In this document: positions 2,874 through 20,432 of the stretch, in pieces | How the letters are laid out: every line of letters begins with the position of its first letter | Position numbering within the stretch: position 1 is the first letter of the stretch | DNA from: a virus | Strand: one strand, 5' to 3' | Length of the DNA stretch: 41,729 nt | IMG/VR virus record: IMGVR_UViG_3300021478_000011 | Span: 1 to 41,729 of that record | The notes under the pieces: model-generated | Told to the model about the DNA's origin: nothing | The model's input: the letters and a program-made list of their open reading frames with translations, nothing else | Databases searched by the model: none | Program-made: the position numbers and the translations under genes

Positions 2874-4238
2874 ATGGCCGGAACAAACGTTGCCTCCCAA
2901 TTTTCTAGCGATATCGTTGCCTACATCGCCGAGAAGACTCTCCCGCTAACCAGGAAGCAACTCGTCGCCTACCAGTTTGGCGACCCGCTGACCCTCCCGA
3001 AAGGTCGAGGGACCACCTACACCGCAACCAGATATCTGCGCATTCCGCTGCCCTATGCGCCCCTCTCCGAGGGTGTCCCGCCAGTCGGCGAGACGATGAC
3101 CATCCAGCAGGTTTCGGCCACTGCCCAGCAGTGGGGCGACAAGGTGACGATCACCGACGTCGCCGAGATGACGATCTACCATCCGTTGTTTCAAAAGGCG
3201 ACCGAACTCGTCGGCCTGCAGGTCGCTGAAACGCTTGAGCGCAACACCTTCAACACGCTCAATTCCGGCACCCAGATCAACTACGTGAACTCCCGGACTG
3301 CGCGGGCCTCTCTGGTGGCCGGCGATGTGCTCAATCCGTTCGAGGTTCAGCGGGCCTACTCGATGCTGTTCAACCTCGGCGCCCCCCGGTACATGGGCGA
3401 CGAGATGACCGACACGAAGCTCGAAGCCGATGCCGGCGGGGCGAAGGCGTCGAACAATCCGCGGCAGATGCCGCACTACACCTCGATTATCCATCCGTTC
3501 GTCGCGGCTGATCTGCGGCAGAACTCGCAGGTCCAGACGGCTTGGTCCTACTCGGACATCAACCGCCTGTACAATTTTGAGGCCGGAGAGTTCAACGGCA
3601 TCCGGTTCTGCGAATCGAACATGGTGCCGTTCTGGACCGGCTTCTTGTCTTCGACGGGCGGCGCAACTTACACTCCAGGAACGTCTGGGGCTCTCGCTGG
3701 ACCGACCTACTACGTTCAGATCACCGGCTCCGACACCCAGAACCAATTCGAGAGCCAAGTCTACGCGATCTCCGGCGCCCAGTCGGTAACCGGTCCTAAC
3801 GGTTCGATCGCGGTCCTGACCCCCTCGACCACCGGCTTCACCTACAACGTCTACATCTCGACCTCATCTGTGATGGCGTCGTCGTCGCTCGGTCTGACGA
3901 CCTCTGGCCCGACCGTTGGCCCATTGGCGGGCAATGCCACGCAGCTTCCGCCGGCCACCTCGGTCGTCATCACCGGCCTTGGCACCGCCCAGCAGCCCCC
4001 GGCGGCCCCCGGCAACGGCCTTACGGTCTATCCGACCTACATCATCGGCCGCGGCGCCTACGGTCAGGTCATGCTGGACGATGCGAAGTTCACCTACCTG
4101 AAAGAGGCCGACAAGTCTGATCCGCTCAATCAGTTGAGGGTGGTCGGCTGGAAGGTGTTCTACGGAACGCTCATTGAAAACCAGCAGTTCTTCATGCGGA
4201 TTGAATCCTTGTCCGCATTCAACGCGACGTTCGGCTGA
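2874..4238 (+). CDS. major capsid protein, N4-gp56 family
   Basis: A 454-residue HK97-fold capsid protein of the N4-gp56 type. The N-terminal half shows the family hallmarks: a regularly spaced start (residues 10-35), RIPLPYAPLSEGVPPVGETMT, and a C-terminal TYIIGRGAYGQVMLDD...VVGWKVFYGT block. Between about residues 258 and 385 there is an insertion rich in S, T, G and P with alternating beta segments (YYVQITGSD, FTYNVYISTSS), likely an Ig- or fibronectin-like surface domain. Without it the length matches the usual 330-400 residues. It follows the scaffold gene and precedes connector genes. Confidence 0.93.
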   Translation: MAGTNVASQFSSDIVAYIAEKTLPLTRKQLVAYQFGDPLTLPKGRGTTYTATRYLRIPLPYAPLSEGVPPVGETMTIQQVSATAQQWGDKVTITDVAEMTIYHPLFQKATELVGLQVAETLERNTFNTLNSGTQINYVNSRTARASLVAGDVLNPFEVQRAYSMLFNLGAPRYMGDEMTDTKLEADAGGAKASNNPRQMPHYTSIIHPFVAADLRQNSQVQTAWSYSDINRLYNFEAGEFNGIRFCESNMVPFWTGFLSSTGGATYTPGTSGALAGPTYYVQITGSDTQNQFESQVYAISGAQSVTGPNGSIAVLTPSTTGFTYNVYISTSSVMASSSLGLTTSGPTVGPLAGNATQLPPATSVVITGLGTAQQPPAAPGNGLTVYPTYIIGRGAYGQVMLDDAKFTYLKEADKSDPLNQLRVVGWKVFYGTLIENQQFFMRIESLSAFNATFG

Positions 4239-4250
4239 TAGAGGCGCAGC

Positions 4251-4544
4251 ATGGCGGTAGGAACGTTAGGAACGTCGACCACATCTGGTCTCGTATCCAT
4301 CAACGGCTGGACGGCATCTACCGCCGTGGCGGACGTTGCAAATGTCGCCGTCCGCATCAAGGACGATCTCAACGTGGCGCATCCGACATGGCCGGGTGCC
4401 TTCATGAAGGACGGCCTTCTGTACTATCCCAATCGGGGCGTGCTGAAGGTCTTGCCGGGCGATTACGTTGGCGTCGATGCCAACGGGTGGCCTGTTCTGG
4501 TTTCCAAGTACTCCATCGCCACTGGTGGATGGACCCACTCCTGA
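4251..4544 (+). CDS. small capsid-associated protein (hypothetical)
   Basis: A 97-residue protein 12 bases after the capsid gene, with beta-rich sequence and the segment LKVLPGDYVGVDANGWPVLVS, which resembles a small barrel. Genes in this slot often encode head decoration or stabilising proteins, but no family was recognised and the role is inferred from position alone. Confidence 0.65.
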   Translation: MAVGTLGTSTTSGLVSINGWTASTAVADVANVAVRIKDDLNVAHPTWPGAFMKDGLLYYPNRGVLKVLPGDYVGVDANGWPVLVSKYSIATGGWTHS

Positions 4545-4554
4545 GAGGACAATC

Positions 4555-5016
4555 ATGGCACCACCCAAAAAGAAGCTCTTCGCCGACGAACAGCCGATTC
4601 TTGACGAAAATCTTCTGACCGATCAGGAGGTCCAGGACCTCTCGACCGAGATCAACGAAGAGATCGCGGACGAACGCAAGGATGCCGCCCGCAAGGCCCT
4701 CAAGGAGAAACTGCGGCGCGAGGCTCGCCAGAGGGAGGGCCTGCTAGAGGCTCAAGAGCGAATTTCGATAGATCTCGCCCCTTACGCCGACCGCATCACC
4801 ATCAACGGTCGGTCGTATCTGCAGGGCCAGACATATACGGTACCGACGTCGCTTGCGATGGTCATGCGAGAGATCATGCAACGCACCTGGGGTCATCAGT
4901 CCGAGATCGACGGCAAGAGCGAGAACTTCTACCGCCGTCAGCGCGGCGCTCGTGTCGTTCCGGTCGGCGAGAACGGTGCTGCGGTCATCAACACCAGCCA
5001 ACTCCTGAGGGCCTGA
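4555..5016 (+). CDS. structural-region hypothetical protein
   Basis: A 153-residue protein. ATG 4555 is chosen over an upstream in-frame ATG (4468) because GAGAGGA lies at 4544-4550 and the upstream start would overlap the preceding gene. The N-terminal half is a charged helix (EEIADERKDAARKALKEKLRREARQ); the C-terminal half has a beta segment around ADRITINGRSYLQGQTYTVP and a conserved-looking MREIMQRTW. It is probably a minor head or connector component. Confidence 0.65.
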   Translation: MAPPKKKLFADEQPILDENLLTDQEVQDLSTEINEEIADERKDAARKALKEKLRREARQREGLLEAQERISIDLAPYADRITINGRSYLQGQTYTVPTSLAMVMREIMQRTWGHQSEIDGKSENFYRRQRGARVVPVGENGAAVINTSQLLRA

Positions 5017-5020
5017 GAAC

Positions 5021-5434
5021 ATGGAACTCGATAAAGAGCCGTCGATCGGCATTTCCTACACGATCGAACTCCCCGGCAAGAAGGCGCTGGTCATGCAGTC
5101 CTTCGTCGGCCGGGACTGCGACGCGAAGGAACTCAATGCCACGCTGGACAAGATCCGGGTGGCATCCGATCGGCAGTTTGCCTTCGGTGCCCTCCAGCAA
5201 TTGAGGCTCCAGCTTGAGCAGGAGCACAAGATCGCCGCCGACCATGCCGGCCGGATGGCTCAGGTGGACGAGAACATCAAGCGGGACTGGGCCAATCGCA
5301 AGGGCGACGTGAAGCTCTCCAAGCGTGAGGAAGAGGCCCAGCAGCAGGCCTACCAGCACTCCGAGGCGTGCAAGGAGCGCATTGCCAAGGTTCGGAAGGA
5401 TATCGCCGAATACGAGGCGATGATCGGAGCGTGA
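5021..5434 (+). CDS. structural-region coiled-coil protein
   Basis: A 137-residue protein. A short N-terminal beta region (IGISYTIELPGKKALVMQSFV) is followed by an almost entirely helical, Q/E/K/A-rich coiled coil to the end. It is packed between other virion genes (4-nt gaps on both sides) and is probably a head-tail or minor structural component; no family was recognised. Confidence 0.65.
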   Translation: MELDKEPSIGISYTIELPGKKALVMQSFVGRDCDAKELNATLDKIRVASDRQFAFGALQQLRLQLEQEHKIAADHAGRMAQVDENIKRDWANRKGDVKLSKREEEAQQQAYQHSEACKERIAKVRKDIAEYEAMIGA

Positions 5435-5438
5435 GAGT

Positions 5439-6179
5439 GTGGCCCTCACCGCAGCACAGATCGTCAATCTGGCAACGCAAATTGCCAAATGCCCTGGTTT
5501 CACTGACCAGGCCCTGCAGTTCCTGAATGCAATCCTTCAGGAACTAGCGCAGAACTACGACTTCAACGTCATCCGCAAGACCTACACGTTCAACTTCTCG
5601 ACCTCTGCTAACGGCAACGGCTATGCGGCCGGCTCAGGACCCAACCTGATGCCGGCCGACTTTTTGCGCCTGCATCGCAACGGGTCGTTCTATTTCATCG
5701 TCCAGGTTCCCTACAAACTGATCGGCGTGACGCAGGAGGAGTTCGACACCTTCGTCCAGCAACCCGGACTGCAGTCATATCCATATCTAGCCTACGTGGA
5801 TGTGACTCAGGTCGCCGGGCAGCAACCGGGGTTATACGTGTGGCCTCCCGCCTCGGGAACCTACCCGGCGACCATTCGCTACAATCCGCAAATGCCGGAT
5901 GTGACCACAGCCGACGTGCCGTGGTTTCCGAATACCGACTACCTCTACACGCGGCTGGCTGGCGAGTTGATGAAGATCACCAACGACGACCGCTGGCAGG
6001 TGTTTCTGGGAGATGCCGATCCTGAGAAGGATCAGACTGGATCTGCGGCCTCGATCCTGCGGTCGTACCTCAAGATGAAGGACGATCCGGAGACCGCAGT
6101 GAAGACTGTGCAGTTGGATCGCAGGCTGTTCAAGCCGAACATTGCACAGGTTAGGAATACCAAACAGATCGGCTGGTAG
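5439..6179 (+). CDS. head-to-tail adaptor (P22 gp4 / T7 gp11-like)
   Basis: A 246-residue protein starting at GTG 5439. The N-terminal helical segment (TDQALQFLNAILQELAQNYDFNVIRKTYTFNF) and the following beta-rich part with LPADFLR-like text (LMPADFLRLHRNGSFYFI) match the general pattern of podoviral adaptor proteins that bind the portal and connect it to the tail nozzle. Position between capsid and nozzle genes agrees. The assignment rests on pattern and order, not on a search. Confidence 0.7.
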   Translation: MALTAAQIVNLATQIAKCPGFTDQALQFLNAILQELAQNYDFNVIRKTYTFNFSTSANGNGYAAGSGPNLMPADFLRLHRNGSFYFIVQVPYKLIGVTQEEFDTFVQQPGLQSYPYLAYVDVTQVAGQQPGLYVWPPASGTYPATIRYNPQMPDVTTADVPWFPNTDYLYTRLAGELMKITNDDRWQVFLGDADPEKDQTGSAASILRSYLKMKDDPETAVKTVQLDRRLFKPNIAQVRNTKQIGW

Positions 6180-6181
6180 CC

Positions 6182-8407
6182 ATGAAGCGTCTTCTTATAG
6201 CCCTCGGTTTTATGTCGGCCCTGATGTCTCCTGCCTATGCGCAGAAGACCAAGGCCGCCATCACGACCGAGATCAACACCAACTTTGCTGACAACAACAC
6301 TGGCGCGATCACACCGGCATTGCTGCGATCAACGACCCTCGATCTTGTCAACTCGTATGTGGATTACAACGGCGCCGGGACATTTACGTGCTCTGCGAAC
6401 AGTTTCGTGTCGTCCGGAACTACGTCGTTGTTCGCCTGCACGCAGCCGTCCTTCTCGTCCTTGAGCGGAATCCTCGGATTGTCTCAGGGCGGAACCAACG
6501 CCAACCTGACAGCCTCTAATGGTGGAATTGTCTATTCAACGGCATCTTCATTTGCCATTCTCCCAGGTACGTCTACTGCCAATCTTTGCCTTCTGAGCGG
6601 ATCATCCAGTGCCCCATCGTGGGGTTCTTGCCCAGGAGGTGGTGGAGGGTCCGGAGTCGTCAATCCCGGAACGTCTGGGCAGTTGACCTACTATGCGGCC
6701 AGCACAAACACGGTTTCCAGTTTGGGCAGCGCGTCGATATCGTCGTCTCCGACATTGACTGGAAACTGGATATTCAGTCCAGCGACAGGGGATGCCCTGG
6801 TTGCGTCTCCCGTGGGAGGCACGACGGCAAAGGGGCTCAACGTAACGCAGACTGGCCCATCTTCCAGCAGCACAGCTGGAATAGTAAATTACAACGCCAT
6901 ATCCGTGACTGACAATTACGGATCTACCGTGATGGGGAATCCGACTAACGCCCTTTCTGTGGCATTGAACTTCGGTGGTTCTAACACCCAAGGAAATCAC
7001 ACTGCATTTGAATCCATTTCATCTCTGACAGCCCCTGCGAGCGTGACCAGCAACGACCGTGATTATGTTGGGGGAACGCTTGTGTTTAGATCTTCATCTT
7101 CCGACAACGGAACAAATACGGGTGCCGGATCGAAGGGGAATGGATTTGGTGCGAACATCGCATGTCAATTGTTCAGTGGAGCAACTAATTATAATGGATG
7201 TGTTGGTGCTGAAATCGACGTAGCAATCGGTACTGGAGCAAGTTCTGCGTCGCGCTTTGGATTGACCTATGTTGCATCTGGAGTTCTCCAGGCAGCGACA
7301 TCAACCAAAGATTCTGCGATAGAGATCGGATCAACTGATATCGGTCAGAGTTGGGCCAACGGAATCATCGTTGGGGGTAATCATGGCGCATTTGGCCTAG
7401 CGACAAATGGAAGTGTTCTAAGTATTGATCCAGGAGGTGGAACTCCTACGATTGCCAATGGTATAGATCTCGTAGGCACAGGTGGGATGACGATCTCCGG
7501 TAATGCCTGGAAATCTCCCGGCGCCCAGATCGATGGCACGGGTTCTCTGACAATATCGTCAAACACAACCTCCAGTCTTTTTACTTCTACACTGGCAGCG
7601 CCTCTTACCATTAGAACAACTGGAGGAGGGAGCACTTCTGCGGTACTCGACAATGGTACAGCATCTCGGGCAACTACATGGGCTTATGCGGACAATGGCA
7701 CAATAAAGTGGTTTGCAGGAAAGCAGACAGATAATAGTTTCATCGTCTTCGATGCTACTAATAGTCATAGTGTTTTCAGCGCCCCCAGCGGGTTGGACAT
7801 TGTGACGATTGCCGGTTCGGGCCACTCGGTAACTCCGTTTCTAAATATAACTTCTCCGGCTACTGGATTACAATTCGGTGGATTCACCGTTATGAAGAAC
7901 GATGGAACATATACATACATCAATGACCCATCCGGGGGACAGAAATTTTTCTTTGGAAATATCAGTGATCCGTCAAGCTATTTTCGCAATACAAATTTTC
8001 TCTTCCAGAAAGATGCGAGTATATCTTATATGGTTTTGACCAGCGGTGGTTTATTTCTTGGTAATGGTATCAACAATACCGTAACACTTATGACTTCTCT
8101 TGCCCCTCCGTTGATCAACACAGGATTTTGCACTGGGGCCACTATTCCGCACGCCAACGGAACTGCTGCATTTGAAATCAATGTCGGATCGTCTGCGTGC
8201 GGAAGCACCGGAACTCTTTCCATAGCGAATGCTACGAACGGGTGGGTGTGCTCGTTCCACAATGTGACAAATCCAGCGACTAATGTGGTTGAGCAGACTG
8301 GTGGGGCAGTGAACACCATAACTCTTACTAACTACGTCAGGACAACCGGGGTTGCTGGAAACTTCACGGCCAGCGACGTCATTCGAGCAAACTGCACAGC
8401 ATACTGA
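6182..8407 (+). CDS. exported-type tail appendage / fibre protein
   Basis: A 741-residue protein that opens with a clear Sec signal peptide (MKRLLIALGFMSALMSPAYAQ, cleavage expected after AYA). The mature part is Ser/Thr/Gly/Asn rich and beta-repetitive, with features common in phage fibres: LSGILGLSQGGTNAN, a poly-Gly linker at about residue 152 and long stretches of short polar repeats. It sits between adaptor and nozzle genes, where tail appendages belong. Base composition is visibly more AT-rich than the flanking genes, suggesting exchange. A signal peptide on a virion protein is unexpected, because assembly occurs in the cytoplasm. Confidence 0.75.
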   Translation: MKRLLIALGFMSALMSPAYAQKTKAAITTEINTNFADNNTGAITPALLRSTTLDLVNSYVDYNGAGTFTCSANSFVSSGTTSLFACTQPSFSSLSGILGLSQGGTNANLTASNGGIVYSTASSFAILPGTSTANLCLLSGSSSAPSWGSCPGGGGGSGVVNPGTSGQLTYYAASTNTVSSLGSASISSSPTLTGNWIFSPATGDALVASPVGGTTAKGLNVTQTGPSSSSTAGIVNYNAISVTDNYGSTVMGNPTNALSVALNFGGSNTQGNHTAFESISSLTAPASVTSNDRDYVGGTLVFRSSSSDNGTNTGAGSKGNGFGANIACQLFSGATNYNGCVGAEIDVAIGTGASSASRFGLTYVASGVLQAATSTKDSAIEIGSTDIGQSWANGIIVGGNHGAFGLATNGSVLSIDPGGGTPTIANGIDLVGTGGMTISGNAWKSPGAQIDGTGSLTISSNTTSSLFTSTLAAPLTIRTTGGGSTSAVLDNGTASRATTWAYADNGTIKWFAGKQTDNSFIVFDATNSHSVFSAPSGLDIVTIAGSGHSVTPFLNITSPATGLQFGGFTVMKNDGTYTYINDPSGGQKFFFGNISDPSSYFRNTNFLFQKDASISYMVLTSGGLFLGNGINNTVTLMTSLAPPLINTGFCTGATIPHANGTAAFEINVGSSACGSTGTLSIANATNGWVCSFHNVTNPATNVVEQTGGAVNTITLTNYVRTTGVAGNFTASDVIRANCTAY

Positions 8408-10111
8408 ATGAGCCTTCGAAACTCGACACCCCTGACCTTCAACCCGCGCGGTCTGTCCGATACGCTGGACGGGTCAACTGTGTTCGCGGGAGCGATGTCG
8501 TCTCTGCAAAATCTCGTTCCGGATCCTTCTACTAGATCATTATGGCAGTGCCGACCGGCGGCGATTAAACTGACGGATTTTACAGCCAGTGGAGGCGCTG
8601 CCACCGACCCATTTAGTTCAGGATTTAGCCCTGGATTTGGTGGGGACGGTGGTCTGTTTCCTGCTCCTCTCGGAAAGATTTCGTGCCTCAAGGTCATTGG
8701 TAACATTGCCTACGGCATGATCGCAACAGGCCTTACTGTCGGTCACGACCAGCCATTTGCGTACAATCTGTCTACCAATACGTTCGGACTCATAACGGGA
8801 ATCACGAGTGCTAACACCCCGTTGAGTCCAGCGAACTCAGGACCTTGGATTCCACCCAAGATGGCTCTCGTGGGGCACGAGCTTCTGGTGACTCATCCAG
8901 GCTACTCCGGAGCGGGAGGGGTTTACTTCGGATGGTTCGATGTTTCCAATCCGTCTGCTATCACATGGAACGGAGGAAACCTGACAGGCCTCGTAACATT
9001 CACGACTGCTCCATCGTGTGTCGAAAACTTCGGCGGTCGCGCCTACTGGATCACCAATCCCCCAACCGGGCAGCCTGCGCTAATCTTCTCTGATGTGTTG
9101 GTTCCCCGCACCGTCACCAATGCAAATCAAGTTCTCACGTTCGATGACAATGTTGCCTTGACTGCGCTTGCACCTCTTCCGCTCAACAATCAGCTCGGCG
9201 GCATCGTTCAGGCCTTGATCGTGTTCAAGGGCGTTCAGAACATGTATCAGGTGACTGGCGATGCGGCGACCAGCAACCTTACCAAGAATGCTCTCAACGT
9301 GGCAACGGGAACGCTGGCGCCCAACTCGATCTCATCAACACCGAAGGGACTTGCATTTATAGCCCCGGATGGGCTTCGCATGATCGACTTCAACGGAAAT
9401 GTTGGAGATCCTGTCGGAACGGACGGTATGGGAAAGACTCTTCCATTTTTCTATGCGGTCGTTCCATCTCGGATGTATGGATCGGCCAATGGTCAAATTT
9501 ATAGAATATCAGTTCAAGATGGATCCCTTCTGAATTCTCCGACAGTCGAGTATTGGTACGACATGACGCGGCAGATATGGTCTGGTCCGCATACTTTTCC
9601 GGCCTCTTGCATCGCGCCATGGAACGGCACATTCATCGTAGCTTCTTTCAATGTCATCAGTTCTCTATGGCAGTCTGACTATGTTCAGACGGCAACGTCT
9701 ACGTTCGTTGAGAACGGCACGCCCATGTCGTTTACCTGGAACACCTGCATGTTGCCGGATACGAACAAGATGTGCGAAAACGCCATGATCGAGACAACGA
9801 TCTACATGGGTCAGGCACCTGGCGGGATATATGCGGTCTATGCCGCAAATCAGAACGGATCAGTTTTTCAGTCTTTAACGATCACAAATACATCGACCGC
9901 GACGGTGTGGGGACAATTCACCTGGGGTCAAGCACTGTGGGGTGGATCGGCAAGTGCTCTGTTCCCACGACGCATCCCATGGGCGGCGCCTATCGTGTTC
10001 AGACGGATGCAGATCGTTGTAGTCGGAACATCATCCAAGGATCTCCGCGTTGGAACGCTTCATCTGAGATACGAGCAGCTTGGATACCTCCAAGAGAGCG
10101 ATGCAGCATGA
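8408..10111 (+). CDS. tail nozzle / stabilisation protein (P22 gp10-like)
   Basis: A 567-residue protein lacking a signal peptide. It starts FNPRGLSDTLDGSTVFAGAMSSLQNLVPDPSTRSLWQCRPA, a start typical of podoviral tail proteins that form the nozzle or DNA stabilisation complex. It continues as repeated beta blades (for example MALVGHELLVTH, GRAYWITNPPTG, GLAFIAPDGLRMID) consistent with a beta-propeller. Location after the adaptor supports the role. Confidence 0.7.
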   Translation: MSLRNSTPLTFNPRGLSDTLDGSTVFAGAMSSLQNLVPDPSTRSLWQCRPAAIKLTDFTASGGAATDPFSSGFSPGFGGDGGLFPAPLGKISCLKVIGNIAYGMIATGLTVGHDQPFAYNLSTNTFGLITGITSANTPLSPANSGPWIPPKMALVGHELLVTHPGYSGAGGVYFGWFDVSNPSAITWNGGNLTGLVTFTTAPSCVENFGGRAYWITNPPTGQPALIFSDVLVPRTVTNANQVLTFDDNVALTALAPLPLNNQLGGIVQALIVFKGVQNMYQVTGDAATSNLTKNALNVATGTLAPNSISSTPKGLAFIAPDGLRMIDFNGNVGDPVGTDGMGKTLPFFYAVVPSRMYGSANGQIYRISVQDGSLLNSPTVEYWYDMTRQIWSGPHTFPASCIAPWNGTFIVASFNVISSLWQSDYVQTATSTFVENGTPMSFTWNTCMLPDTNKMCENAMIETTIYMGQAPGGIYAVYAANQNGSVFQSLTITNTSTATVWGQFTWGQALWGGSASALFPRRIPWAAPIVFRRMQIVVVGTSSKDLRVGTLHLRYEQLGYLQESDAA

Positions 10112-13695: not shown

Positions 13696-15237
13696 ATGGC
13701 CTTCTTCAGCCCACTAGGTGCGATCGGGGCCGCTGCCGGCGGCTATATGGACGAGCGACGTCAGCAGAAGTTGGATCAGGACGCCGAAGACCTGCGCATC
13801 GGTCAAGACATCCTTGGCGATGTGTTCAAGGGGTGGCAGATGCCCGGCAGTATGGGCGCCCTCGGAGGCATGGGTCAGCAGGGGCCGCAGGCGCCTCCTC
13901 CCGGAATGGCGTCCCAGCCGCCCCCGCAACCACCCCAGGCGCCTCCTATGCCGCCGCAACAGGCGCAGGCGGGGCCTCCTCCGGGACCACAGGTGGCATC
14001 GGCGGGGCCTCCAGCGTTTCCTTCACCGGGTCCGCAATTTGACCGTTTCGGTTCTTGGGCCAATGTTGCTCCGATCGTTCCCCGTGGGGTGCAGACGGTG
14101 CCGGGTCAGATGATCCGACCGCCACCGCAGCAGTTTGGACCCCCGCAACCCCCGCAGGAGCCACCTCAGCCCCCACCCGGGCCTCCCCAAGCTCCCCAGC
14201 AGCAGATGCCGCCGCAGGCTCGTGCGCCTATGCCCCCGCAGCAGCCGCAGCAGAGGCAGGGGGTTCAGTTCGATCAGCAGGGACGTCCGACGTTCGATCT
14301 GCCGACTCTCGTAAACCGCATCAATCAAGTCAGGCCGAATGCAACGCCAAGACAGTTTGCGGCCGCGATGAAGGCGGGTCTTCCTTTTCTCAACGAGGAG
14401 GGAAAGATCCAAGGGATGCAGATGCGTCAGTACATGCAGGAGCAGGGGCTCTCCATGCGTGAGATTCTCCTACAAATGCAGGTTCGCAAAGAGGGACGGC
14501 AGGAAACGGCTCAAGATGAAAAGAAGGCAGCCGTTGAGAAGATCGGAGATGCCATCATCGCTGGGGATCAGCCTCCGACTCTGACCGGATTGTATCGTGA
14601 CCGCGCAGCAATTCAGTCGTATCTGGCAGACAAGAAGTATTCTCTGTCGAAGGCTCAACAGGAATGGAACGTTGCCCAAAAGCAGATCGGATCTCTCAAC
14701 TCGCAACGGATGATCCAGTTTGCGGGAACGGCCAAGAGCGTCGTGAATACCCTTGATGAGGTGAAAAGCCTCTCCGAGGAGATGGAACTGTCAGGAATTC
14801 CGCTGCTGAATAAGGCGGAATTGATGGCGTATACCCAGACACAGGGCAACACACCCAACGGGAAGTTGGCTGGTCGCTACATTGCGGCTGTCAATACGCT
14901 GAAGTCAGAGTTTGCCAATCTTGAGAACGGCGGATACGCACCAACTGAGGAAGTCTGGAAACTCGCCAACAAGCAGATTGACGAGAACTTCGGCGTCAAG
15001 CAATTGGGATCAAGGCTAGACGAGATCCGGCGCCTGATCGGCTTCCGCATTCAGGCCATTCCGAACCTTGAAACGCTCGGCGGCGCTTCTGCCAATCGCT
15101 ACACGGGACAACAGGGGTCTCCCTTGGTTCCTCCTGCTCCAGGTGGAGGTGGGCAGCAGACATCCCCGGCAAGAGTAGAGCAAAACGGCCACATCTATGA
15201 GCGACAGCAGGACGGCTCTTACAAGCCGGTCAACTGA
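13696..15237 (+). CDS. internal virion / ejection protein B
   Basis: A 513-residue protein. It has a short hydrophobic, Gly-rich N-terminus (GAIGAAAGGYMDERRQQKLDQD), a long Pro/Gln-rich disordered region (about residues 55-195, many PPQ and QPP repeats), and a helical C-terminal half. The helical part carries coiled-coil segments (YSLSKAQQEWNVAQKQI). It is placed between two other candidate ejection proteins and shares a TGATG overlap with the next gene. Confidence 0.65.
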   Translation: MAFFSPLGAIGAAAGGYMDERRQQKLDQDAEDLRIGQDILGDVFKGWQMPGSMGALGGMGQQGPQAPPPGMASQPPPQPPQAPPMPPQQAQAGPPPGPQVASAGPPAFPSPGPQFDRFGSWANVAPIVPRGVQTVPGQMIRPPPQQFGPPQPPQEPPQPPPGPPQAPQQQMPPQARAPMPPQQPQQRQGVQFDQQGRPTFDLPTLVNRINQVRPNATPRQFAAAMKAGLPFLNEEGKIQGMQMRQYMQEQGLSMREILLQMQVRKEGRQETAQDEKKAAVEKIGDAIIAGDQPPTLTGLYRDRAAIQSYLADKKYSLSKAQQEWNVAQKQIGSLNSQRMIQFAGTAKSVVNTLDEVKSLSEEMELSGIPLLNKAELMAYTQTQGNTPNGKLAGRYIAAVNTLKSEFANLENGGYAPTEEVWKLANKQIDENFGVKQLGSRLDEIRRLIGFRIQAIPNLETLGGASANRYTGQQGSPLVPPAPGGGGQQTSPARVEQNGHIYERQQDGSYKPVN

Positions 15238-16829
15238 TGGCTGATGCACCCCCGTTCGATCCCAACAGACCGTTCAAGGCGGTGGAGGCACCACCGTTTG
15301 ATCCGAACAAGCCGTTCAAGGCGGTGGAGGCGGCGCCTCCCATGTCTGCGGGAGATCAGGCGGCCGACATCGCAAAGTCTGGCGGCGTCGGTCTGGTCAA
15401 GGGCACGATCGGACTTGCTGGTCAGCCAGCCGACTACGGCCCTCAGAGCAAGGCGGTCGGCGGATGGCTCGGAGACAAGCTCGGGATTTCCCCCGAGACG
15501 CAATCGAAGATCGGGACTGGTTTTGACTTGGCGAGGCAAACCGGAGTCCTTGGCCCGATTGCGGCTCTCGGCACGCATACGCCTGGGTCGGAGACAATCC
15601 GCCGCGGCGTCGAATCTCAGGCCGGGCCTCTGTACGAGCCCAAGACGCGCGCCGGTCGCTATACCGAGACCGCCGCTGGATTCGTACCAACTGCTTTACT
15701 CGGCCCCGGTGGAGTTGCGCGCCGAATCGCAACTCAGGCTGTAGTCCCTGGAATCGCTAGCGAGGCGGCTGGCGAAGCGACCGCAGGAACAAAATACGAG
15801 CCATATGCGCGCACAGCAGCAGCCATTGCTGGCGGACTACCGTTCGGCCGATGGAGGCAGCAGCCTGCTCGACCCAACGCTCCCGCTCCCATCTCCGAGG
15901 AACTCCACGCCGCTTCTAATGCTCAATACAAGCAGGTTCGCGATATGGACCTGCGCCTCAAAACATCTCCCATCTCCGGGATTGCCGATGCTGCCGAAAA
16001 CAAGATCACCCGCGACGGGCTTACTCGCAACAATTCTCCTCTCACTTACGCGGTTATCGATCGTCTCAAGGATCTTCGGAGGGCGCCCTCTGGGGCGTTT
16101 GTTAGCGGGAGTGATTTTGAGGCATCTCTGCAAGAGCTTCGTCAGGCTGCATTTAAGGGCGAGGGCAAGGCGGCTTGGGACACGATCGAGGAACTCAACA
16201 AATACCTCAAAGACATTCCTGCTTCTCACGTAATTCAGGGGGATGCTAAGGCGGCATCTGCGCTGTTCGACCAAGCGCGCGGAAACTGGGCGGCGATGAA
16301 GCGGCTCGACATGCTTGGTGGGAAGCTTGATTTGGGGGATCTCAACGCCGCGACCGCTCACTCTGGGATGAACAAGGACAACGCGATCCGACAGGCGGTC
16401 AAACAACTGATCCGCCCGAACAAGTACGGGGATACGCTTGCGGAAAAGCATGGATTCTCCAAGCGAGAGATCGCAGCCATGAATGAGATAGCGCGTGGAA
16501 CGGCCCCTATCAACACACTGCGCTACATCGGCAATCTTCTGGGAGGAGGCGGCGGGCTCGGTCAGCTTTTGCTTGGAGCTGGAAGCATGGCGGCGGGATA
16601 CGAGACAGGGCATCCCGAACTGATGGGGCTTGGATTCCTCGGATACGGGGCACGGAAAGCGTCTGGTGCGCTCACGGCGCGGCAAGGCCGTCGCCTCATG
16701 GAGGAGGTTGGCCGGCGATCGCCAGAAGGACAGAATGTTCCGATGCAACCGGCACAGCCTAGCGATGCGGGGCAACTTCTTGGAGTGGCGGGATTGCGCG
16801 GTCTTTCCGGCTACGGCGGTCCTCAGTGA
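15237..16829 (+). CDS. internal virion / ejection protein C
   Basis: A 530-residue protein. The N-terminus contains a perfect two-copy, 14-residue repeat (residues 4-17 and 18-31, APPFDPN[RK]PFKAVE). A Gly-rich membrane-active-looking region follows (GVGLVKGTIGLAGQPADYG). The rest is helical with another Gly/Leu hydrophobic stretch near residue 430 (NLLGGGGGLGQLLLGAGSM). It completes the probable ejection block and overlaps the next gene by GTGA. Confidence 0.65.
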   Translation: MADAPPFDPNRPFKAVEAPPFDPNKPFKAVEAAPPMSAGDQAADIAKSGGVGLVKGTIGLAGQPADYGPQSKAVGGWLGDKLGISPETQSKIGTGFDLARQTGVLGPIAALGTHTPGSETIRRGVESQAGPLYEPKTRAGRYTETAAGFVPTALLGPGGVARRIATQAVVPGIASEAAGEATAGTKYEPYARTAAAIAGGLPFGRWRQQPARPNAPAPISEELHAASNAQYKQVRDMDLRLKTSPISGIADAAENKITRDGLTRNNSPLTYAVIDRLKDLRRAPSGAFVSGSDFEASLQELRQAAFKGEGKAAWDTIEELNKYLKDIPASHVIQGDAKAASALFDQARGNWAAMKRLDMLGGKLDLGDLNAATAHSGMNKDNAIRQAVKQLIRPNKYGDTLAEKHGFSKREIAAMNEIARGTAPINTLRYIGNLLGGGGGLGQLLLGAGSMAAGYETGHPELMGLGFLGYGARKASGALTARQGRRLMEEVGRRSPEGQNVPMQPAQPSDAGQLLGVAGLRGLSGYGGPQ

Positions 16830-17017
16830 AGGCAACCAAGCCCTCGGTCGACTACAGCCGCGGCCACCGGGACAGCCACTGCGGCAAGATGGACTCGGCG
16901 GACACCGGATACTGCGAGCACTTCATTGAGCGCGGCCAGAAGGATGGGGCCTGTAGCGAGGTGCAGGGAACGATCGGACGGGGCATGTGGTGTCGTAAAT
17001 ACGAGGCTGCAAAGTGA
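16826..17017 (+). CDS. four-cysteine HiPIP-like small protein
   Basis: A 63-residue protein starting at GTG 16826. Cysteines at 19, 30, 43 and 56 lie in HCG, YCEHF, ACSEVQGTI and MWCRKY contexts. The C-terminal half matches the end of high-potential iron-sulfur proteins (C..V.G.I...WC), but the usual first CxxC is replaced by C-x10-C. It may bind Fe-S or zinc. It is translationally coupled to the ATP-grasp gene (GTGA overlap), so the two may act together. Confidence 0.7.
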   Translation: MKATKPSVDYSRGHRDSHCGKMDSADTGYCEHFIERGQKDGACSEVQGTIGRGMWCRKYEAAK

Positions 17018-18402
17018 ACCTGCTCATCATCGACGGAAAGAACGCTAACGGCCTCGACTACGCCATGCGGGCAAAGCGAGACGGGCACGATGTTCGCTGG
17101 TGCTTCCCGGAGAACGAGCGCAACCGCAACATCGGCAAGGGCCTAGTCAACGTCGTCCATGACCCCCTGCCGTCGCTGCGCTGGGCCGATCTGGTCTTCC
17201 TCGCCGACAACACCCGCGGGCTGTCCTACACCGATCAGCTGCGCAAGATGGGCGGCAACGTAGTCGGGCCGACGATCGAGACCGCCAATTGGGAACTCGA
17301 CCGGACCCTCGGCATGGAAATGTTCGACATGCACGGGATCGACGTGCCGGAGTACGAGGAGTTCACCTCGTTCGACAAGGCGATTGCCTACGTCAAGAAG
17401 CACGATCGGCCGTTCGTATCGAAGCCCTCGGGCGATGCCGACAAGGCGTTGAGCTACGTCGCCAAGTCGCCGGCAGATCTGGTCTACATGCTCGAAAGAT
17501 GGTCGAAGTCATCCAAGCTCAAGCCCCCGTTCATCCTGCAGGAGAAGATCGATGGCATTGAAATGGCAGTGGGTGGATGGTTTGGACCTGCAGGGTTCAA
17601 CAAGGGGTGGCTGGAGAATTGGGAGTTCAAGAAGCTCTGCAACGGTGACCTTGGCTGCGCTACAGGTGAGCAGGGCACCGTGTTACGCTACGTGGCCAAG
17701 TCCAAACTTGCAAAGCAGGTCCTTGCTCCATTTGAGGATGCCCTTCTTGACGCTAATTACACCGGATACATCGACGTCAACTGTATCATCGACAAGCGCG
17801 GGCAGCCCTGGCCGTTAGAGTTCACCATGCGGCCGGGCTGGCCGACGTTCAACATCCAGCAGGAGCTACACGAGGGCGACTGCGTGCAGTGGCTCGCCGA
17901 CTTGGCGGACGGTGTAGACTCCGACAATGTGAAGATGGACGAGGTTGCGATCGGCGTCGTCATGTCGATCCCGGACTATCCCTACAGCCACATCACGCGC
18001 AAGGAAGTCACTGGCATCCCGGTCTATGGGATAGACGAGGACCTGCAGCCGCACGTTCATCAGTGCGAGATGATGGCCGGCGAGGCTCCGGACCAGGAGA
18101 CGCTGAAGCCTGTTCCGATGCCGGTCACGGCTGGCGACTACATCCTTGTCATGAGCGGGACGGGCGAGACGGTGAAGGCTGCGAAGGATCTGGTCTATCG
18201 TCGCATCAAGAAAATATCCATTCCAAATTCTCCCATGTATCGCACTGACATAGGCGACCGTCTGGCAAAGCAGTTACCTGAACTCCAGGCCAATGGCTAC
18301 GCAACCGGCATGGAGTTCAGGTCTGCTCCGAAGCCCGTCGAGAAGCGAGAACCAGAGCCGAAGGGCGAGAAGATCGGCAACCTAGAAATTATCTACGTGT
18401 GA
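17014..18402 (+). CDS. PurD-like ATP-grasp ligase
   Basis: A 462-residue protein with the order of GAR synthetase (PurD). There is an N-terminal pre-ATP-grasp domain (MNLLIIDGKNANGLDYAMRAK; ADLVFLADN; GGNVVGPT). The ATP-grasp follows (PFVSKPSGDADK at 133-144; FILQEKIDGIEMAVGGWF at 173-190; GYIDVNCIIDKRGQPWPLEF with E269; RPGWP). The PurD-like C-terminal domain includes VMSGTGETVKAAKDLVYRRIKKI and MYRTDIGDRL. The PurD EFN metal-binding triplet is EFT here, so the substrate may differ. It is the last gene of the late strand, tail-to-tail with 18382-19074. Confidence 0.8.
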   Translation: MNLLIIDGKNANGLDYAMRAKRDGHDVRWCFPENERNRNIGKGLVNVVHDPLPSLRWADLVFLADNTRGLSYTDQLRKMGGNVVGPTIETANWELDRTLGMEMFDMHGIDVPEYEEFTSFDKAIAYVKKHDRPFVSKPSGDADKALSYVAKSPADLVYMLERWSKSSKLKPPFILQEKIDGIEMAVGGWFGPAGFNKGWLENWEFKKLCNGDLGCATGEQGTVLRYVAKSKLAKQVLAPFEDALLDANYTGYIDVNCIIDKRGQPWPLEFTMRPGWPTFNIQQELHEGDCVQWLADLADGVDSDNVKMDEVAIGVVMSIPDYPYSHITRKEVTGIPVYGIDEDLQPHVHQCEMMAGEAPDQETLKPVPMPVTAGDYILVMSGTGETVKAAKDLVYRRIKKISIPNSPMYRTDIGDRLAKQLPELQANGYATGMEFRSAPKPVEKREPEPKGEKIGNLEIIYV

Positions 18403-19074
18403 TCCAGCCAACTGGCAGCGATCATCCTGCGTCGGGCCGGTGCAGCGCGGCGCGTGCCAGAGCAGATAGCCGGCTAGAATCGCAAGGATCGCAAGCAATC
18501 CGGGCAGACCAGCGCCCACAGTCGGTCCTGGCGTTGCCACTATATCCGCTCCCATGTGTGTGACGGTCAGGAATGCCTGCGTCTCGTATTGGTGATCGCT
18601 GTCCTGCAGATAGAAGACGCCAGTCGCGCTAACACCTGAAGTGTACGGCGCCCATGTTGTGAGGCCATCTTGAGATCCGGGAAGCCAATTCCACGGCGGC
18701 AATGTCTCCTGAATGTAGTGCGTCTGCGCTTGGATGATCTCGGTGCTTCCATCGGCATTGTTAAGCCACTCGGTGTTGCCGAAGTTGTTGAAGGCACCAA
18801 TATCGACGGTCACGCCGTTGATTGTCAGTGTCGCGCCTGTGACTGCATGCGTGTAGCAATTGCAGTCGGTTCCGGTCCATGTCACAAGGAACGGAAGGCC
18901 GCCGAGATTAGCAAAATTAGTGCCAAAATAGCCGTTATTGTCATAACCAAAAGTGCTAGGTCCCGTATCTGCTCCAGCAGGCGCATTTATAAATCCTTGT
19001 ACGTACATCGTGTCGGCTTTTGCCGGGACGAGGATCAGCAGAACAACGGAAAGACATGCAGCGATGCGTATCAT
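18382..19074 (-). CDS. secreted protein with GxGLPG C-terminal anchor
   Basis: A 230-residue protein with a Sec signal peptide (MIRIAACLSVVLLILVPAKAD), a beta-rich mature domain (FGYDNNGYFGTNFANLGGLPF; TGATLTINGVTVDIG), then TPGPTVGAGLPGLLAILAI followed by LAGYLLWHAPR. That last block is a Gly/Pro motif, hydrophobic span and basic residues, as in exosortase-type or GAGLPG-tailed proteins common in Bradyrhizobium. It would sit at the envelope of the infected cell, perhaps altering the surface. It ends 21 bp inside the convergent ATP-grasp gene. Confidence 0.75.
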   Translation of the reverse strand: MIRIAACLSVVLLILVPAKADTMYVQGFINAPAGADTGPSTFGYDNNGYFGTNFANLGGLPFLVTWTGTDCNCYTHAVTGATLTINGVTVDIGAFNNFGNTEWLNNADGSTEIIQAQTHYIQETLPPWNWLPGSQDGLTTWAPYTSGVSATGVFYLQDSDHQYETQAFLTVTHMGADIVATPGPTVGAGLPGLLAILAILAGYLLWHAPRCTGPTQDDRCQLAGSHVDNF

Positions 19075-19325
19075 GGTGCCTCACATGTGACCTTGACGCC
19101 GCTATGCCAGCCGACGCTCACGACCTTGGCGCCGAGTGTCACTGCGCAATGGCGGGTCAGTTCCTCTTGGTATATCTCATTTTTGATTGCCTGCGCCGCG
19201 AAAAAGGCAATGATCTTCTCGACCTCGATTAATGCCTCTGCTTCGATCTTGAACGCATAAAGATCGGTGTCGTCCTTATTGACTGGGCATTTTGCCCGCA
19301 CCTCGACCTCATAGATGCACCTCAT
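19071..19325 (-). CDS. minimal T-fold-like protein (QueF/FolE-like), putative
   Basis: An 84-residue protein whose predicted order is beta-beta-helix-helix-beta-beta, the tunnelling-fold layout. Local motifs resemble purine or pterin T-fold enzymes: KCPVNKDDTD (residues 12-21; QueF has a catalytic CPV followed by an Asp), IEVEKI (33-38), YQEELT (52-57; compare QERLT in FolE and the purine-anchoring Glu of QueF) and WHSGV (73-77). It overlaps the DpdA-like gene by 4 nt. The family match is an inference by eye; it is far smaller than QueF or FolE and would need to oligomerise. Confidence 0.55.
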   Translation of the reverse strand: MRCIYEVEVRAKCPVNKDDTDLYAFKIEAEALIEVEKIIAFFAAQAIKNEIYQEELTRHCAVTLGAKVVSVGWHSGVKVTCEAP

Positions 19326-19921
19326 TCGAGCAACTCCCCCTGGTGATGCCGATCGCGCACTGCCTCGCGCATGTGCGTATATCGCGCGAGCCCTGAGCCA
19401 TCGGCTGAATTGACGCCTAGCTTGTCAAAATGGGACCAGCGGTCGCCGTGGTTGACCCGGCCGACATGGGTCCATTTTCCCAGTGCTTGCGCGGCCTGGA
19501 TGATGTGTGTGGAATGTTGCGAGCACTTCCAGTTGGTCGATCCGCCGATAAACACCGCTGCAATATCATCCCATGGTATCGGCAGATGCTCCTGACCATC
19601 CTGACAGGCGAGCGCCAATTTCCAGCCCTGCAGTCGGCCCTTCCAGTGCTCAAATACTTCAAGCGTTCGCCGAGCTGACCCAACCACGTCTGGCACCGTC
19701 ACGAACAGGCATCGCGCACGATTGACGGCCTCGCGCTCAAGCAGAGACATGAACGAGGCTTCCTGCCAGCCGGGCGAAAACCGGCCATTGTCGATGCCGA
19801 ACGGGCGGGATGGATCGCGCAGCCGATAGCGCGTCAGCGGCGTAAGCAACTGCCCGACCTCGCAGCCGAGTTCTGCCGCGCAGGCGGCCAGATCCTGACC
19901 ATTGTCGAGAAGGGCGATCAC
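19322..19921 (-). CDS. DpdA-like / TGT-like DNA 7-deazaguanine transglycosylase, putative
   Basis: A 199-residue protein from GTG 19921, chosen because it overlaps the upstream stop as GTGA and has GGAGAGG 6-7 nt before it. Longer in-frame starts overlap the neighbouring gene by 130 nt. Motifs typical of phage TGT-like DpdA proteins are FGIDNG (Asp44), CLFVTVPDVV (Asp78), CQDG (Asp108), FIGGSTNWK (124-132), HVGRVN (152-157) and SADGSG (Asp174). The enzyme class exchanges guanine for a 7-deazaguanine base in DNA (tRNA for cellular TGT), protecting phage DNA from restriction. It is shorter than full TGTs. Confidence 0.62.
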   Translation of the reverse strand: MIALLDNGQDLAACAAELGCEVGQLLTPLTRYRLRDPSRPFGIDNGRFSPGWQEASFMSLLEREAVNRARCLFVTVPDVVGSARRTLEVFEHWKGRLQGWKLALACQDGQEHLPIPWDDIAAVFIGGSTNWKCSQHSTHIIQAAQALGKWTHVGRVNHGDRWSHFDKLGVNSADGSGLARYTHMREAVRDRHHQGELLE

Positions 19922-20226
19922 GGTCGCCTCTCCACAGAGGCGATGGCGCGGGCGGTCATGATTGCAGCCCAGCAGCACCACATGTCGTATTCCTGTCCAG
20001 CGCCAAGTTTCTCTAAAGCGTCGTATGGCTCCGTTCCGTACCTGGGCCACCGATCCGTGCGGTAAGTGGCGATGTGATTGCCGCCGACCATCACCAGATT
20101 GAGCGCCGCGAGCAACTGGTCGTGCTGGGCGCGGAGGCGGGCGATCTCGTCGGCGGCTTCATCCCTTTGGCGAAGCGCATCGTTCGAACTGCACGGCATC
20201 CGCAGCCGCTCCACAATGTCCATCAT
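19918..20226 (-). CDS. small protein with DIVERL coiled-coil start, copy 2
   Basis: A 102-residue protein. Its first 45 residues (DIVERLRM..., DEAADEIARLRAQHDQLLAALN) closely resemble those of the adjacent 20223-20432 product, so the pair arose by duplication. This kind of N-terminus is widespread in small early phage genes (Ea22/Ead-like). The C-terminal half (GQEYDMWCCWAAIMTARAIA) differs. The start overlaps the upstream stop as ATGA. Confidence 0.65.
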   Translation of the reverse strand: MMDIVERLRMPCSSNDALRQRDEAADEIARLRAQHDQLLAALNLVMVGGNHIATYRTDRWPRYGTEPYDALEKLGAGQEYDMWCCWAAIMTARAIASVERRP

Positions 20227-20432
20227 GACTTCTCCTCCGCGGCGGCAATGGCGGCACGGGCGAGTTCCCCTAGTCGGCTCATTCCCTTGTCTCTGTTGGC
20301 TATTTCCTTCAGCGCCGCGAGCAGCTCGTCGCGCTGGGCGCGGAGACGCATGATCTCGTCGGCGGCATCGCCGCGCACGGCCCAGGAATGAGCGTCCCCG
20401 AATGTTTCTAATCGCTCTACGATGTCAGTCAT
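20223..20432 (-). CDS. small protein with DIVERL coiled-coil start, copy 1
   Basis: A 69-residue, mostly helical protein (MTDIVERLETFGDAHSW, then DAADEIMRLRAQRDELLAAL). It is a paralogue of the next gene in the operon. It is coupled to the RecT-like gene upstream and to its paralogue downstream by 4-nt overlaps. Function unknown. Confidence 0.65.
   Translation of the reverse strand: MTDIVERLETFGDAHSWAVRGDAADEIMRLRAQRDELLAALKEIANRDKGMSRLGELARAAIAAAEEKS

Follow-up and report, generated by a model that had tools for sequence, protein, structure and literature searches.

The closest described systems are phages that carry DpdA. In CAjan, deletion of dpdA abolishes all modification (PMC6884629). 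Carrying DpdA by itself does not ensure that DNA is modified, since no modification is seen in Mycobacterium phage Orion, whose singleton DpdA has no pathway genes with it; the DpdA-only phages were the most numerous group in the 2019 survey, which described their modification as hard to predict (PMC6884629). Phages with DpdA and a QueF or QueF-Like (QueF-L) of normal size are already known (PMC6884629, PMC7472734); in Dp-1 and HVTV-1, QueF-L was predicted by HHpred, but mainly preQ1 is made (PMC6884629). The DNA of Pantoea phage MED16 contains dADG, only a DpdA is known there, and the route to dADG is open (PMC8306585). YhhQ is a preQ0 transporter with experimental support (PMC5372724), and QueF and QueF-L have catalytic Cys and Asp residues, with Cys55 and Cys21, respectively, as the nucleophiles (PMC5485725).

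The window analyzed here, meaning the whole stretch of DNA at its full length, is a 41,729-base IMG/VR virus record containing a two-gene unit of 851 nt (Table 1). Both open reading frames and their overlap lie where the initial annotation had placed them, and the motifs it had listed for the 199-residue protein (FGIDNG, PDVV, FIGGSTNWK, HVGRVN, SADG) and the 84-residue protein (CPVN...D, QEELT, HSGV) are all present. The frames are taken as real genes because both are kept in relatives at about 70% amino acid identity under purifying selection (pN of about 0.2 and pS of 0.63 to 0.81 against relatives). A longer GTG start for the first gene exists at 20050; homologues begin at the 199-residue position. 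Adjacency or overlap of the two genes is also seen in relatives, for example, in loci L020, L022, L048, and L057.

Table 1. Positions of the gene pair, its neighbors in the window, and selected related loci
Locus	Feature	Position	Strand	Size or basis
Window	Compact DpdA-type guanine transglycosylase (putative)	19322-19921	-	199 aa, GTG start at 19921
Window	T-fold protein, QueF/QueF-L superfamily (proposed)	19071-19325	-	84 aa
Window	ATGA 4-nt overlap joining the 199-aa and 84-aa genes	19322-19325	-	sequence
Window	102-aa gene upstream, 4-nt overlap with DpdA gene, shared operon	19918-20226	-	sequence
Window	Series of genes with 4-nt overlaps, both pair genes included	20226-18382	-	
Window	Small gene related to the 102-aa gene	20223-20432	-	
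Window	Gene with a 4-nt overlap with the 84-aa gene	18382-19074	-	230 aa
Window	PurD-like ATP-grasp gene	17014-18402	+	
Window	Gene matching major head protein PHROG 1357	2874-4238	+	
Window	Gene matching major head protein PHROG 21712	15237-16829	+	
L270, Rhizobium phage RHph_X2_30	DUF165 transporter, 84-aa family member, MED16-type DpdA	5221-6920		
L103	Cytosine-C5-methyltransferase-like gene near compact DpdA	5607-7409		
L012, ReqiPine5	PAPS-reductase family gene near compact DpdA	8589-9506		
L016, Erythrobacter phage R6L	PAPS-reductase family gene near compact DpdA	7343-8386		
L131, Micromonospora andamanensis	Frame matching Vut_1 and compact DpdA profiles	4407-5303		
L010, Escherichia phages phiG7 and SHIN8	Split compact DpdA gene	7878-8216, 8195-8524		

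Around the pair, the 102-residue gene has no pathway homologue and no relative beside other DpdA loci, and nothing in these comparisons points to a modification role for it; it is related by profile to the small gene next to it, perhaps through tandem duplication. The 230-residue protein has a signal-like N terminus, a GLPGLLAILAILAG membrane segment near the C terminus, and a PEP-CTERM-like look, and it matches no family. The PurD-like protein (TIGR00877, E = 6e-27; GARS_A and GARS_C above the Pfam cutoffs) closes a plus-strand gene run and is odd phage cargo, and two separate genes each match a major head protein PHROG. Comparison of the terminase for host or taxonomy gave only distant matches. 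A profile scan of the window for Vut/YhhQ, QueC, QueD, QueE, FolE, QueF, and other DpdAs found nothing further at E values of up to 1 in this possibly incomplete record, in agreement with the earlier remark that no other queuosine or preQ0 genes were seen here.

The 199-residue protein belongs to PHROG 15826 (E = 3e-33), which is labeled "unknown function"; Pfam and NCBIfam have no model for it, and annotations in isolated phages call the family members hypothetical or, in many actinophages, DpdA-like tRNA-guanine transglycosylase. At least 572 relatives were found by a pattern scan of viral contigs, and bacterial and archaeal genomes contributed 40 loci. In a 90-sequence alignment, conservation is complete or reaches at least 90% at D44, N45, PD77-78, QDG107-109, GG126-127, K132, H152, GR154-155, N157, and D174, so the motifs are not a product of chance, and the two predicted catalytic Asp residues, D44 (at least 90%) and D174 (invariant), are aligned with those of the MED16-type DpdA. 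The AlphaFold2 model (mean pLDDT 95.7) is an eight-stranded barrel, the short last strand counted, and thus the expected (beta/alpha)8 barrel with an Asp pair was obtained. This fold match is not specific by itself, because a Foldseek search returned many TIM barrels, with TGT among them and others scoring equally; in a viral structure library, the model matches phage queuine tRNA-ribosyltransferases.

Single-sequence PDB searches with both proteins yielded nothing useful, and a profile of compact DpdA against PDB sequences gave only chance matches. In profile-profile comparisons, where each P value is that of a single comparison, compact DpdA aligned with the MED16-type DpdA over 194 columns (P = 9e-8), with both Asp motifs and the His in register, and with phage DpdA1 (P = 1.6e-5), while the controls QueE, QueC, and FolE gave about 0.05 or worse; the MED16-type DpdA and DpdA1 were linked at P = 1e-11. 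Direct comparison with one bacterial TGT was not significant, and identity with DpdA2 was rejected (P = 0.58, 464 versus 199 residues, no detectable similarity), so superfamily membership rests on the links to the MED16-type DpdA and DpdA1. These profiles and the predicted structure place the 199-residue protein in the DpdA/TGT superfamily as a compact member.

The 84-residue protein is modeled by AlphaFold2 (pLDDT 90.4) as a T-fold with the beta-beta-helix-helix-beta-beta order that had been read from its sequence. In a PDB fold search, the top seven matches were archaeosine synthase QueF-Like chains with TM scores of 0.79 to 0.82 (best match 5jyx, TM 0.82, E = 9e-6), followed by GTP cyclohydrolase I and then QueF, and the likeness to QueF and FolE suggested earlier is thereby recovered, with QueF-L first. 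A 17-member profile of the family likewise ranks the 5jyx QueF-L first among 177,635 PDB sequences (E = 0.0036), and comparison of profiles gave 6e-6 for actinophage/bacterial QueF, 2e-4 for QueF, 1e-3 for FolE, and 0.07 for QueD. FolE and QueD were rejected as identities on these weaker values, and a separate QueD gene lies beside the family in L048, L055 to L057, and L081. The protein has no match over the curated cutoff of the Pfam QueF model (PF14489), and Pfam and NCBIfam searches gave nothing useful. Using tblastn with the window's sequence, no relative was found in isolated phages; another seed yielded one true relative, in Rhizobium phage RHph_X2_30, and Vibrio matches at E = 0.6 were taken as chance. 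Intermediate forms are the product of actinophage gene Aoka gp39, which occupies the corresponding position, and its relative in the Nocardia locus L107, which barely exceeds the Pfam QueF cutoff (27.4 versus 27.3 bits).

Residues C13, P14, D21, Y23, V35, E36, Q53, E54, V68, G72, and H74 are invariant over the 17 members. In a joint alignment with QueF and QueF-L, C13 coincides with their nucleophilic Cys and D21 with the Asp that acts as acid, and the VE and QE pairs of the family coincide with the VE/IE and HE pairs of those enzymes, the VE and HE pairs being the substrate-binding ones in QueF structures. The NADPH motif E(S/L)K(S/A)xK(L/Y) is gone, with VEKI, VEDI, and similar sequences replacing ESKSLK in the members shown, and QueF-L likewise is without this NADPH-associated stretch. 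From this alignment and the model, we propose that the 84-residue protein belongs to the QueF/QueF-L T-fold superfamily and acts on the nitrile of preQ0. The initial annotation had it reducing or altering the base, and it is alteration that the QueF-L-like character without an NADPH motif favors, with reduction less well supported.

Genomic context is the strongest evidence for a modification unit. When loci were retrieved with the 84-residue family alone, all 30 distinct ones had a DpdA of either of two subfamilies within 700 bp; of the 36 distinct loci of this family overall, 24 have compact DpdA as the partner and 12 have the MED16 type. The type of partner switches even inside the clade nearest the window, where L143 carries a protein 76% identical to the window's 84-residue one and yet has a MED16-type DpdA. 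That a single T-fold family accompanies DpdAs of two distant families is an argument for their doing the same job. In a blind clustering of neighbors at 120 nonredundant loci of the 199-residue family, the three most frequent adjacent clusters were QueC (24), YhhQ-type Vut_1 (14), and the 84-residue family (11), and the neighbors QueC, PTPS/QueD, and Vut_1 were confirmed by Pfam. Among viral loci, a same-strand pathway gene lies within 400 bp of 46 of 69 anchors, compared with none of 344 control genes from the same contigs; the blind clustering is the cleaner test, because the QueC, Vut, and 84-residue profiles used in this count were refined partly with such neighbors. The gene orders include DpdA-84aa-Vut, DpdA-84aa-QueD, and QueC-DpdA, with Vut-QueF-DpdA in actinophages, and roughly half of all compact DpdA loci lack a recognizable partner nearby.

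Several of the related loci have features of their own. In RHph_X2_30, the transporter, the 84-residue family member, and the MED16-type DpdA occupy three to four adjacent genes that carry no annotation as a modification system. Cytosine-C5-methyltransferase-like genes near compact DpdA, as in L103, occur in 18 loci, 12 of them on genome contigs, mostly from bacterial genomes, and a PAPS-reductase family gene is found near compact DpdA in two unrelated phages. The M. andamanensis frame that matches both Vut_1 and compact DpdA is either a fusion or a frame artifact. In phiG7 and SHIN8, a frameshift splits the compact DpdA gene, which sits between the genes for the sliding clamp and the DNA polymerase; CAjan, although related to these phages, has no such gene and was rejected as a sufficiency test for compact DpdA. 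Full DpdA1 and preQ0 genes coexist with compact DpdA in Arthrobacter phage Sonali (L013) and Vibrio phage R29Z (L011), and hence two transglycosylases may work on one genome.

We consider it probable that the two genes form a minimal unit for 7-deazaguanine modification of phage DNA, in which compact DpdA inserts preQ0 and the 84-residue protein acts in a QueF-L-like manner, giving dG+. The barrel with its Asp pair, the T-fold, and the QueF-L match support the compact unit first suggested for this locus, and homology to the MED16-type DpdA, from a phage with dADG in its DNA (PMC8306585), agrees with the operon context. Compact DpdA would be a trimmed TGT-type barrel that exchanges guanine in phage DNA for preQ0, with D174 as the nucleophile and D44 as the acid/base. 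The host would supply preQ0, by synthesis there or by import, since the window carries no preQ0 pathway gene; related phages carry a YhhQ-type transporter or single Que enzymes instead. The 84-residue protein would then act on preQ0, most probably after its incorporation into DNA as dPreQ0: C13 would attack the nitrile and generate a thioimide, with D21 giving a proton and E36 and E54 holding the base. Attack by another nucleophile, for which ammonia is the likeliest candidate, would yield the amidine dG+. The missing NADPH motif favors ammonia and dG+; since predictions of this kind went wrong for Dp-1 and HVTV-1, dPreQ1 and dADG are candidate products as well. The expected effect would be resistance to host restriction enzymes.

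The same unit with a reductase of QueF function as its second member, and dPreQ1 as its base, is an unlikely reading: Dp-1 and HVTV-1, with their predicted QueF-L, carry dPreQ1 (PMC6884629), and QueF is in the same superfamily and next-best by profile, but the ESKSLK stretch, lacking in QueF-L too, is replaced in all members shown, and both PDB fold and profile favor QueF-L. Somewhat less likely still, the 84-residue protein would hydrate the nitrile to an amide and so produce dADG. We know of no T-fold nitrile hydratase, and the MED16 region examined (18 to 36 kb) has no member of the 84-residue family; on the other side, water can attack a thioimide, the family pairs with MED16-type DpdA in the 12 loci counted above, and dADG occurs in MED16 and in Salmonella phage 7-11, where nothing beyond a DpdA is known, so that some unknown phage or host enzyme makes it (PMC8306585, PMC6884629). 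Quite improbable is a role of the pair in tRNA modification, in which a small phage TGT and a QueF-like partner would alter the Q/G+ state of tRNA from the host or the phage. The TGT-type fold would suit this, as would archaeal QueF-L, which works on preQ0-tRNA (PMC5485725); however, the 90-sequence alignment holds no conserved Cys set for the TGT zinc site (C-x-C-x2-C...H), the protein ends about 25 residues past D174, with almost nothing after the nucleophile motif, and its nearest homologues are DpdAs from phages with modified DNA. Equally doubtful is a catalytically altered accessory role for compact DpdA, for example, as a hydrolase that removes bases or as a partner subunit. Such a role would account for its presence in Sonali, R29Z, and phiG7 beside full DpdA1 and the preQ0 pathway, but every motif residue is conserved and no other DpdA is seen in most loci, among them the window.

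Returning to the preferred reading, a QueF-L-like modification unit, such a pair would probably let the virus hide its DNA from host defenses with a host precursor, and as a two-gene unit, it makes the base, the order of steps, and protection from restriction directly testable. As far as the literature and libraries searched show, what is new is a widespread subfamily of compact DpdAs, distinct from the others, an 84-residue branch of the QueF superfamily missed by Pfam and NCBIfam, and the tight pairing of this branch with DpdA. Among the Dpd proteins, DpdL is a 7-carboxy-7-deazaguanine decarboxylase, and Cui et al. reportedly described the DpdA subfamilies DpdA3 and DpdA4 in 2023; compact DpdA or the 84-residue family may already be named among the subfamilies of that year. 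The novelty claimed for the locus holds for the compact, unannotated form and the pairing, but not for the principle of DpdA with QueF or QueF-L, which was known (PMC6884629). Because Pfam and NCBIfam are blind to both families, many modified phage genomes may be scored as unmodified. More tentatively, the 84-residue family might be a new T-fold branch acting on dPreQ0 in duplex DNA with at least two DpdA subfamilies, whose product (an amidine, an amide, or a new derivative) would be the missing last step in some DpdA-only phages. If so, it would be the smallest QueF-type enzyme known to us and the first shown to use DNA.

Compared with known systems, compact DpdA is without the zinc-binding C-terminal part of tRNA-TGT. 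DpdA2 of Vibrio phage nt-1 shares with it the TGT superfamily, a phage setting, and Que genes, but differs in its length of 464 residues and in the undetectable similarity. DpdA1 (9g/CAjan; PHROG 887) has the same order of motifs (DSG/DNG, GD/PD, H/QDG, IGG, HGFG/HxGR, SxDS/SxDG) and adjacent Que genes, but it has about 296 to 318 residues, belongs to another PHROG, and lacks direct BLAST similarity. The MED16-type DpdA (Pantoea phage MED16 gp38) aligns with the full length of compact DpdA, with DNGaFS, PDv, and SxDST..AR motifs, and pairs too with the 84-residue family and YhhQ, but it is larger (about 222 to 261 residues) and forms a separate family by profile. The actinophage DpdA-like tRNA-guanine transglycosylases (Majeke gp54, Aoka gp40, and Sonali gp81; PHROG 15826) belong to the same family as the 199-residue protein, and Vut_1 adjoins DpdA in Majeke and Aoka, with QueF in Aoka; their identity is 33 to 36%, and their QueF is recognizable, at 104 to 109 residues, and not of the 84-residue form. 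The QueF-Like of P. calidifontis (5jyx/5k0p) resembles the 84-residue protein in its T-fold (TM 0.82), in its catalytic Cys and Asp, and in having no NADPH motif, whereas it has 109 residues, about 20% identity, and HE at the place of QE, and the 84-residue family has in H74 an additional invariant His.
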